Shown here: positions 16,766-23,163 of the stretch, piece after piece | How positions within the stretch are numbered: the first letter of the stretch is position 1 | How the letters are laid out: the number at the start of each line of letters is the position of its first letter | Source of the DNA: Pelagibacteraceae bacterium AG-390-M19 | Lineage (GTDB): Bacteria > Pseudomonadota > Alphaproteobacteria > Pelagibacterales > Pelagibacteraceae | Reading direction: 5' to 3' | Length of the DNA stretch: 50,287 nt | Assembly (NCBI GenBank): GCA_003279765.1 | Contig: QCHC01000002.1 | Location: forward strand, 1-50,287 | Translations under genes and position numbers: made by a program | Notes under the pieces: generated by a model | What the model was told of the DNA's origin: nothing | Database searches by the model: none | The model's input: the letters and a program-made list of their open reading frames with translations, nothing else

Positions 16766-16869
16766 AATTATCCTTTTGTATCAATAAGAATAATCGAATT
16801 TTTCAAAATAAATAACTATTTTTAAATTTGTTGTGGTTGCTAACTTTTTTTAAATATTAATTCGTATTT

Positions 16870-16922
16870 CTTGGTACACTCTTGGTACAGAGACAAAAAT
16901 CGTCTTGGTACAATCTTGGTAC
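16870..16922 (+). repeat. four CTTGGTAC direct repeats (16870, 16881, 16904, 16915), i.e. two pairs with 11-bp period
   Basis: cttggtacactcttggtacagagacaaaaatcgtcttggtacaatcttggtac read directly. Confidence 0.85.
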
Positions 16923-16979
16923 GGGTATGTATTTGACTCTCGGTTAGACTCATGGTTCAGGATTTGTTAATCTTGGATA

Positions 16980-17153
16980 GTGAAAAGATTTGAAAAAATA
17001 TTTAGAGGTAAAATTTCATATAAAAGAATTGATAAATACGTTAATTTAGTTCGTAAAACATTAGATCCAGATGATGATATGGCAATAGAATTTGACATCC
17101 AGGATGATTATCAGCATATTAAAATTGAAGTATTTGATAGAGTTTTACATTAA
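16980..17153 (+). CDS. 57-aa hypothetical protein (not in supplied ORF track)
   Basis: GTG start: MKRFEKIFRGKISYKRIDKYVNLVRKTLDPDDDMAIEFDIQDDYQHIKIEVFDRVLH*; stop overlaps the next ATG as TAATG. Confidence 0.6.
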   Translation: MKRFEKIFRGKISYKRIDKYVNLVRKTLDPDDDMAIEFDIQDDYQHIKIEVFDRVLH

Positions 17154-17341
17154 TGGAAACTTGGCAAGTAATATTAGCAATAATTATAGTAGGCTTATCA
17201 ATGGTAATGCCAATTTATTATTCATATAAAAAGAAGAAATTAGAAAGAAAATTAAAAGAGGGAAGAGAAGTAACTGAAAAAGAAAAAATAAGAGTTTATT
17301 TAGATAATATAAACGAGAAGTTCAGAGCTAAGCATAGATGA
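17153..17341 (+). CDS. 62-aa single-pass membrane protein with basic tail
   Basis: METWQVILAIIIVGLSMVMPIYYSYKKKKLERKLKEG...; hydrophobic N-terminal segment; overlaps both neighbours (TAATG and ATGA). Confidence 0.7.
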   Translation: METWQVILAIIIVGLSMVMPIYYSYKKKKLERKLKEGREVTEKEKIRVYLDNINEKFRAKHR

Positions 17342-20300
17342 GATTAAAGATAGACGCTCAAACAGCCTTTATAAAAGAAATTTGCACCTACTATATGGAT
17401 TTCTTAAAAACAGGTTTTAAAAAAACAAGATTCCCAAAAAGATATTTAAGAATTACAGATGAAAAAGGATATAAGATTGGTATTGATCTTTCAAAGTACG
17501 AAAAATTTAATCTTTCATTAAAAAAAAGAGTTCATAAATCCAAAGGTTTTGAGGATAATATAAGTGTTAATAAAGGTGAATTTGGGGTCAAACTAAATAA
17601 TACATCGCAAGACTTAATCCAAAAACTTGTAAAACAAATTTCAGAAAAGGATATTGAGAGGATTGTTAATCTAACAAATAAAACAATTAAAGAATATTCG
17701 ATATCACACAGAACTAAACCTGATGAGGCTTACGAGAAAATTAATGAAACAATAAAATATGATTTAGATAAACTTATAGTAAATCCAATATGTGAAAAAA
17801 TGGATCCACTTATTGGTAGTCAGAGTAACTATGAAATAGAGTCACAAAATACGTTAAGATTAAGATTGTCAGATACAATTATTAGTCCTTTAACGGATGG
17901 GATCCCTTACATTTTTAATGATTTATTAGCGGATAAAAAAATTAAACCAAAAGATAAAATAGCAGAGCTTTTTAACAAAACGGATATTGCAAATAATATT
18001 TTAAATAGTTTTAAAAATTTAGATGTTAAAGATTTATATTATGATCTTCGTGAAATAGTCATTTCTAGGAGAAATTTAGACAAAAAAGAAACTTATCTAA
18101 ATATATTTCATATAGAGATCGAGGGTAAGGTTTTTCCATTATTTTATACTCAAATAAATATTACAGAAAATTCAGGAAGTGCAAAATTTAAGATTGAACC
18201 ATCAAGTGAATTATTTTTAAATAAGAATGCAATTAAGTATGCTTTTGATGTTTTAAAAACAGATAAAAATATTATTGAATATTACGAAGGTGAAAGAAAA
18301 TTTTATATATCCGAAATAGATAATTTATCTGAATTGATTAACGAAGTTGTTGTTTCATTGATATCAAAGTTGCGTTTAGATGGGAATATAGATGTAAATA
18401 AAACAGACCCACAATTAGTGGTAAGTACAGATAAAAGTTCTACCTTTAAAATTTCAAATAATTTTTCTTTATCAGTTGCGGATAAGTCTGATGAAGCATT
18501 GATAAATGATTATGAAGAAATCTTAGAAATGTTTAATGGATCAAGCAGTGAAATTTTAGATATGTTTAAGAAAATTATATCAGATTTTATATTGAATGAA
18601 CCAGAAGTTATAACTGAAGAACTGGCAGATGAATGGGATGGTATGAGCGTTAATGAAAGGCTAAATTATGTCAGTCCGATACCTTTAAATTCTGAACAGC
18701 AAAAAATAATTAGAGCTCTAAAAAATGAGAAATGTAATTATGTTGTAGTTGAAGGACCACCTGGAACTGGTAAATCACACACAATATCATCAATAGCATT
18801 TGATTATATTCTCTCAGGAAAATCTATTTTAATTCTATCAGATACTAAAGAAGCTTTAGACGTAGTTGAAAATAAAATAGATCAAACTCTAGATAAAGTT
18901 AGAGGGGAAATTAATATTCAAAATCCCATATTAAGATTAGGAAAAATGGGCAACACTTATAGTAAAATTTTATCGAGATCCTCTATGGAAAATATTAGAG
19001 ATTTTCATAGGTCACAAAAAAATGACATTGAAAGTGTAAAAAAAGAAATAAATGAATTAACAAATTATATTGATGATAAAATTAAAATTGAAACAGATCA
19101 TTATAAGTACATTGATAAAGAAAAATTTGAAGAGTTCTCCGAAGTTCAAAAATTAATAAACCCATCAGATTTAGTAATCAAATTAGAATCCTTAAGTGAT
19201 AGTACCGCTAAAGCAGATATAGTTTTAGAAAAAGATGAAAAATTTATTAATACAATAATTGATAAACTTCATGATATTGAAGATGCAGAGGAACTTATTG
19301 ATTTTTTCAAAGATATTTGGAACAAAGATATGGGTAAAAAGAATTTATCAAATTTTATAGTTTTTCTCGATCATTTAAGCATTGTTGAAAAATATATTTT
19401 ACAGGGTGATTCAAATTTTAAAGCTTTAAAGTATTTTACAAAAGTTTCAAAACAAAGATTAACCAATCTAAAGTCCTTTCTAAACGAATACAGTAAAATG
19501 ACTGGTGGTTTTCTTGGTAGTCGATCATGGTTTAAGGGAGATGCGGTTGCTCTTCTTTCGAAAAAGATTGCTTCTACTGTAGGTATAATTAAAGTTTTAA
19601 ATCTAAAAAATGATCATGATAAAATTCAAGAAACTTTAGATGAATACTCAATCTTAAGTGACATAACAAAAAAACAAAATTTTGAAATTGTATGTAAAAT
19701 TATTCAGCATGCAAAAAAAAATGATCAAATTAAATCAATTATAGACGCTAAAAATAAGTTTTATAAAGTTTTAAAATTTTTGAGTATTGATAAATCAAAC
19801 GCAGAAAATGTATTTATCAAACAAGATAATTTAGATTCTTTATATTCAAATATTTTTTTTGAATTTAGTGAAGAAAAAAATGATGCAATTAAAAAATATT
19901 ATGAGATGGAAGAATTTTTTTCTAGAAGTTTTAATATTAAAGATAGATTTGATTATACCAAAACAATGCAAAAACTTCAGTCATTACATACTAGTAAAAT
20001 GGCAAGTGAGCTTGATGGTAAATTAATAAACTTTTATGATAGACAAAAAAATAGTGCTAATGCTATAAGACAAATTATAAGAGCAAAACAAAAATTTCCT
20101 AGAACACAATTTGATAAGTTAAAAACAGCTTTCCCCTGTATAATTTCCAGTGTTAGAGATTTTGCAGAGTATATTAATCTTCAAAAAGACTTATTTGATT
20201 TGATAATTGTTGATGAAGCATCTCAAGTAAGTATAGCGCAAGCATTTCCAGCCCTTATAAGAGCAAAAAAAGTATTAGTTCTTGGAGATAGAAAACAATA

Positions 20301-22705: not shown

Positions 22706-22768
22706 GTATTAGAACTCCTAAGGTTGGTTGATTTTTTTAAGGTTAAAAGTTTATAGTTGGTAATAGAC

Positions 22769-22845
22769 TCAATCCTTTTCTGCTTACTCGAATTACGCAA
22801 CAAGGGAGATAATAAAAAAAGCGGAATACGATAGAAAAGGATTGA
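22769..22845. repeat. 13-bp perfect inverted repeat (TCAATCCTTTTCT ... AGAAAAGGATTGA) with 51-nt internal loop
   Basis: 22769-22781 pairs with 22833-22845; located in non-coding island sequence. Confidence 0.65.
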
Positions 22846-22983
22846 AATCCAATGCATCATCAAAGTAAATCATTGGCGTTTGTTCAAACTTTGCTTCAAA
22901 CTTGTTTTATTTATGAATTGAAAAAAAATTTATGATCACAATGTTGGCCAATTTAAAACTTATTTTTTGATTAAAAAATAATT

Positions 22984-23055
22984 ATGCTTGAAGCAATAAT
23001 AACTATTGAATTGTTGGCAATAGGAATTGCAATTATTTCTCATATTCAATCTTAA
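22984..23055 (+). CDS. possible 23-aa hydrophobic peptide
   Basis: ATG ORF MLEAIITIELLAIGIAIISHIQS*; hydrophobic, in otherwise non-coding sequence; no ribosome-binding evidence. Confidence 0.3.
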   Translation: MLEAIITIELLAIGIAIISHIQS

Positions 23056-23144
23056 TTTAAAGTTCTTGTACCAAGATTTAAAATGAAATAAGATTTTAAA
23101 ATATGTTGAGAATGCTAGGATTTGTTGATCACTCATTGACATTT

Positions 23145-23163
23145 CTTGGTACATTCTTGGTAT
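23145..23163 (+). repeat. CTTGGTAC/CTTGGTAT pair with 11-bp period near right end of island; reverse-orientation single copy (GTACCAAG) at 23068-23075
   Basis: tttcttggtacattcttggta (23142-23162) matches tttcttggtacactcttggta (16867-16887) at 20/21. Confidence 0.8.

Follow-up and report, generated by a model that had tools for sequence, protein, structure and literature searches.

The described elements closest to the one analyzed here are the CIMEs and the phage satellites of the VEIME and tycheposon type. A CIME (cis-mobilizable element) keeps attL and attR, its genes for integration and transfer having been lost (PMC5704250). VEIMEs and tycheposons are named as marine phage satellites in PMC11389934 and PMC10803314, and PICMI is defined by an integrase, AlpA, a primase and Fis (PMC10803314). 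In SAR11, hypervariable regions with pilin genes have been described, and no attC sites were found in them (PMC2217521). Our literature search found no paper describing the lpdA site reported below; the VEIME paper lay outside the scope of that search, and the elements at lpdA and tRNA-Met possibly overlap with SAR11 elements already listed among VEIMEs or tycheposons.

Like a CIME, the element in our window (the whole stretch of 50,287 nucleotides that was analyzed) has no integrase and keeps both att ends, and its relatives show tandem accretion at one site. However, CIMEs have been characterized as what remains when ICEs or IMEs decay, whereas here the integrase-less elements outnumber the autonomous ones and carry unrelated cargo. 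The lpdA elements also belong with phage satellites rather than with conjugative elements. The autonomous relatives resemble VEIME/tycheposon-type satellites in their size of about 9 kb, their integrase, replication gene and small terminase gene (TerS), their site-specificity and one circular virome form, but the window element has none of these three genes. Unlike PICMI, the satellites here carry PolA and TerS. Integrase-less cassettes that gather in tandem at one site, and that may move in trans, recall integrons and CALINs; in contrast to those systems, these elements have whole arm-and-core ends instead of attC and a phage-type integrase instead of IntI. The sites themselves are organized like those of lambda/P4-type heterobivalent integrases, with a core common to attL, attR and attB, direct-repeat arms on both sides and a 3' gene end as target. 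They differ in that the SAR11 target is a protein gene, lpdA, that there are 2 + 4 putative arm sites in one orientation, and that the arm domain is unrecognized by Pfam.

The island is 6,509 bp long and lies between lpdA and priA. Its features, in window coordinates, are as follows.

15338 to 16738, forward strand: lpdA (dihydrolipoamide dehydrogenase), the target gene, an ORF whose last 13 bp are the left core.
16726 to 16738, forward: left att core (attL), AATACACTCTTAA, repeated exactly at 23235 and present as the empty attB in relatives.
16870 to 16877, forward: putative arm-type site, copy 1, CTTGGTAC.
16881 to 16888, forward: putative arm-type site, copy 2, CTTGGTAC, 11 bp after copy 1.
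16904 to 16911, forward: putative arm-type site, copy 3, CTTGGTAC, 23 bp after copy 2.
16915 to 16922, forward: putative arm-type site, copy 4, CTTGGTAC.
16980 to 17153, forward: cargo ORF of 57 aa, with a 91% identical copy at the same place in L068; no family.
17153 to 17341, forward: cargo ORF of 62 aa, hydrophobic in an N-terminal stretch; L064 and L068 have copies of it.
17338 to 21933, forward: cargo SF1 helicase of 1531 aa (Pfam AAA_11/12/30), with a 60% homologue in L068.
21948 to 22523, reverse: cargo protein of 191 aa, probably exported, with a 57% homologue in L049 at the same site; no family.
22520 to 22705, reverse: cargo ORF of 61 aa; no family above cut-off.
23068 to 23075, reverse: single reverse copy, GTACCAAG inside CTTGTACCAAG.
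23145 to 23152, forward: putative right arm-type site, copy 1, CTTGGTAC.
23156 to 23163, forward: putative right arm-type site, copy 2, CTTGGTAT, followed by the conserved GGAAAGAA.
23235 to 23247, forward: right att core (attR), AATACACTCTTAA, an exact repeat of the left core.
23270 to 25225, forward: priA, the other flanking chromosomal gene, an ORF.

AATACACTCTTAA forms the final codons of lpdA; it is directly repeated at both island ends and single in the empty site. The right core ends 22 bp before priA, and the outermost arm copies lie 131 bp (left) and 71 bp (right) from the flanking cores. We propose that the recombinase core is AAAAGAG-CAATACA-CTCTTAA at 16718-16738, where the hyphens mark its probable division into half-sites and overlap. 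When the chromosomal flanks of the window are joined, they are identical over 71/71 bp to the empty site of L040. Among relatives with both genes on one contig, which were counted by hand, the lpdA-end and priA-start patterns stood exactly 31 bp apart (the empty site) in 33 sampled genomes, while six (G000, G035, G041, G087, G104 and G121) had an island with CTTGG-type arms between the two genes and five (G002, G006, G011, G111 and G124) had another insert there. Inserts of 0.19-6.8 kb without CTTGG arms were seen in L029, L030, L032, L033 and L034, and thus the lpdA-priA spacer is a wider hotspot.

Six exact matches to CTTGGTAC occur in the window (16870, 16881, 16904, 16915 and 23145 on the forward strand and 23068 on the reverse), against 0.74 expected, and at least six were seen in 0 of 100 shuffles. 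The 11-bp-spaced pair CTTGGTA-N4-CTTGGTA occurs three times, always within these arm arrays, and in none of 100 shuffles; throughout the host genome assembly (873 kb, 68% complete) it is confined to the same three island places. Rfam and tRNA scans of the window gave no matches. The original prediction had listed four left direct copies, a right pair and a reverse copy, and all were found where it had placed them, with the shuffles ruling out chance. Its claim that the left and right 21-bp blocks agree at 20 of 21 positions was also correct, because the copy at 23156, CTTGGTAT, is CTTGGTAC with a single mismatch. The core-like direct repeats that it had described outside the arms were borne out as AATACACTCTTAA at 16726-16738 and 23235-23247, and where it had seen no recombinase ORF in the island, a homologue search of the island, the window and the rest of the host assembly was empty as well. 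Both L014 elements and L015 likewise have a reverse copy of the CTTGTACCAAG type in their right ends. At 23066-23094 of the window, a weak promoter-like TTGTAC-N17-TAAGAT that faces the core overlaps this conserved CTTGTACCAAG; a promoter scan around the reverse copy at 23068 scored no better than shuffles.

The window element carries no integrase, replication or packaging-hijack (phage satellite) genes. Because it lacks an integrase while attL, attR and all arms are intact, we regard it as a non-autonomous cargo element. Its 1531-aa helicase gave partial PADLOC matches to MkoC/MkoA/Hhe (Mokosh, Hhe), covering the helicase part only, and its matches to NCBIfam ProA/Hhe, again in the helicase part only, were far below the cut-offs. 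Because these matches are partial and below the cut-offs, we label the protein defense-like and not a member of Mokosh, Hhe or ProA. To the eye, its C-terminal part looks like a PD-(D/E)XK nuclease with a zinc finger, and the protein is perhaps an undescribed defense protein combining an SF1 helicase with a possible C-terminal nuclease.

A search of genome_contigs (85,000 species) with the left-array pattern returned 20 matches, of which 19 are from Pelagibacteraceae and all of these lie at the 3' end of lpdA. The remaining one, L059 from Oscillibacter, has neither the array layout nor the core nor an lpdA match and was set aside as an unrelated chance match. Alignment of the lpdA-site elements shows four arm copies at the left end, spaced 11-23-11, and a single pair at the right, in the same orientation throughout. 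The arm sequence itself varies between elements, with the alleles CTTGGTAC, CTTGGCAC, CTTGGTAA, CTTGGCAT and CTTGGTTC, and the base changes are shared by most or all arm copies within an element. L014 provides an example: it has two elements in tandem at lpdA, with core and ends duplicated. In the second element each of the six arm copies has CTTGGCA or TTGGCA, although its left-end segment is 87% identical to the CTTGGTAC-type end of the window. A T-to-C change running through all copies is how a putative protein-binding site would behave. This second tandem element (L014:4170-5260) is a minimal cassette with one pilin-like gene and the arm allele CTTGGCAC.

The cargo between these ends is diverse: SF1 helicases (the window and L068), type IV pilin genes (L014, L060, L061, L062 and L065, and L055 with a peptidase and an ATPase), ion channels with PrsW (L016 and L066), a trypsin-like protease (L031) and type III restriction (L051). 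At 16 of the 19 Pelagibacteraceae loci, as in the window element, no integrase homologue follows the array; an integrase is present at two, and L056 is too short to assess.

The two loci with an integrase, L015 and L035, encode a tyrosine recombinase of 509 aa and 514 aa, respectively, about 100 bp inside the array. It is followed by a PolA-type polymerase (DNA_pol_A) and a small terminase (Terminase_2). Integrase, PolA and TerS are all present in L015, L035, L069 and L073. L069, an IMG/VR virome contig of 9,177 bp, has 99-bp terminal repeats, and for this reason it is most simply read as circular; its attP joins the right arm, the core and the left array ahead of the integrase. From their gene content, the integrase-bearing L015, L035 and L069 appear to be phage satellites of about 9 kb. 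Only three phage records match the L015 TerS, and two of these belong to the pelagiphages HTVC023P and HTVC027P; a pelagiphage is thus a plausible helper. Among viral contigs searched with the integrase and PolA profiles, L069 was the sole match, and no circular integrase-less copy was found in IMG/VR. A search of viral contigs with one arm pair gave 11 matches; these had neither the array nor satellite genes and were treated as chance.

In L015 the integrase lies as follows.

3162 to 4691 of L015: integrase, in which K-I-x-R-K-T-F replaces the usual HxxR box.

The first catalytic histidine is not evident, and the same holds in all four relatives. R315, K359, R449, H471 and Y481 of L015 are invariant among the four integrases, and we take them to be the catalytic residues. 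The full-length model matches XerA, Tn1549 Int, lambda Int and Cre; because it is poor (pLDDT 51), we used it only for the recombinase class and modeled the N-terminal domain separately (pLDDT 70). That domain is predicted to form a beta-sheet with a helix, and three of its four top PDB fold matches are arm-binding domains (P4-like, HAI7 and HPI), the matches to 3rmp, 3ju0 and 3jtz being weak (probabilities 0.90, 0.80 and 0.51; E 0.13-0.31). The Pfam arm-binding domain, a profile search of PDB sequences and a search against named phages gave no matches to the integrases. In 397 sampled genomes of the family, the integrase profile was positive in three, one of them only 26% identical.

A second site was found at tRNA-Met. 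In G502, an integrase of 35% identity is inserted at this tRNA gene together with the same set of satellite genes, and the arms there read GTTGGTAA. The autonomous satellite stands in tandem with an element that has no homologue of the satellite integrase, and the core is present three times.

1752 to 10633 of L073: satellite of the tRNA-Met tandem, with GTTGGTAA arms.
10633 to 17661 of L073, running into L075: integrase-less element of the same tandem, with GTTGGTAA arms.

All nine copies of GTTGGTAA in 33 kb of G502 sit at the four element ends, and in other genomes nine of ten GTTGGTAA pairs lie about 110 bp from a tRNA-Met core. We conclude that the arm repeat goes with the integrase and its site. 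Among the ORFs of the integrase-less element are ion channels, a PrsW-like protein and an oxidoreductase-like protein, a content similar to that of L016 and L066 from the lpdA site.

The original prediction had read the repeats as arm-type sites of a tyrosine recombinase, and had named a scattering of the motif with no tie to island edges as evidence against this. In SAR11 the motif keeps to island ends at a single site, the lpdA 3' end. The arrays of L015 and L035 directly adjoin a tyrosine recombinase, the association with integrase genes that it had proposed to look for, and the circular attP and the different repeat in the same layout at tRNA-Met support this reading further. Judged from these comparisons, the repeats very probably serve a virus-satellite integrase as docking sites. 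We also consider it likely, with good confidence, that a heterobivalent tyrosine integrase uses the CTTGGTAC arrays as arm-type sites and that the element bearing them is moved in trans by a satellite integrase.

Alternatively, the window element could be a decayed, CIME-like satellite that has lost its integrase and is immobile, its arms being fossils and the diversity of cargo arising by homologous recombination through lpdA and priA. The rarity of integrases fits this, as does the comparison with the close relative L064, where the cargo differs and identity, 97.6% in lpdA, shows only a partial drop just past the core, to 88.5%. In L060:2401-3400 (array on the forward strand) the left arms are CTTGGTAC (GTAC) and the right arms CTTGGCAC (GCAC), so the pairing of arm alleles is not strict; the element resembles a hybrid of two pilin elements in tandem, as in L014, and may have formed by deletion between them. 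Decay would not readily explain, however, why the window element has no satellite-gene remnant at E<1e-3, or why most of the elements spanned in full have kept their arms, their spacing and both cores intact. Between distant hosts, the non-coding ends are also better conserved than lpdA: the window and L053 are 88.9% identical in the left end and 75.6% in lpdA. The window and L035, by contrast, are 85.3% identical in lpdA and 48.4% in the left end; left ends thus move from host to host. Cargo of related kinds is found at lpdA and at tRNA-Met, in each case with the arms that match the site, and we consider decay unlikely.

The repeats could instead be operators or promoter elements of a satellite-encoded regulator, or replication iterons, with no role in recombination. 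In the autonomous relatives the left array does lie directly upstream of the integrase gene, and 11-bp direct repeats resemble iterons, but the repeats are found at either end of elements that lack integrase and replication genes, their distances to the core are conserved, the repeat switches in parallel with the attachment site, and the promoter scan was no better than chance; this explanation is improbable. Several repeats at both ends and one fixed insertion site would also suit a Tn7-like transposon with multiple transposase-binding sites, which we regard as very improbable, given end pairs that are direct and not inverted, a duplicated core that is the lpdA end already present in the empty site, and a tyrosine recombinase as the associated enzyme. 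Chance repeats in AT-rich DNA have a negligible probability, since the pairs never arise in shuffles and a further 19 genome contigs show this layout at a single site.

Returning to arm-type sites, we hypothesize that the N-terminal domain of the integrase binds the arms while its catalytic domain cuts the core at the lpdA 3' end. The enzyme would be supplied by related SAR11 phage satellites that use the same lpdA site; it would recombine attL and attR of the window element in trans, and the resulting circle could reinsert at another lpdA end. Transfer between cells would occur in phage particles. Because integrase-less elements outnumber autonomous ones, such trans-mobilization is directly testable.

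SAR11 are among the most abundant bacteria in the sea, and the exchange of defense and surface genes in these streamlined cells has so far been poorly explained. The lpdA system offers a concrete candidate mechanism: its ends and its empty site are defined exactly, there is a candidate enzyme, and the arm alleles are swappable. This mechanism would predict which islands are mobile and which integrase moves each. More tentatively, and with a little less than even confidence, we suggest that SAR11 has an integron-like cassette economy. Rare, roving satellite integrases would act in trans to shuttle many integrase-less cassettes (defense, pili, channels) with standard arm-and-core ends between lpdA and tRNA sites, and these cassettes would travel with the satellites in pelagiphage particles.

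GTTGGTAA repeats were also seen elsewhere. The GTTGGTAA pairs in viral contigs were rejected as relatives, matching neither satellite proteins nor the tRNA-Met core. Three unrelated viral contigs (L111:10119-10285, L151:10552-10718 and L125:5417-5583) have dense, opposed GTTGGTAA arrays with 11-bp spacing. In G106, GTTGGTAA repeats lie 16 kb apart in L081 and L085, a triple in one and a pair beside a tRNA-Met core in the other, and together they possibly delimit one 16-kb element.
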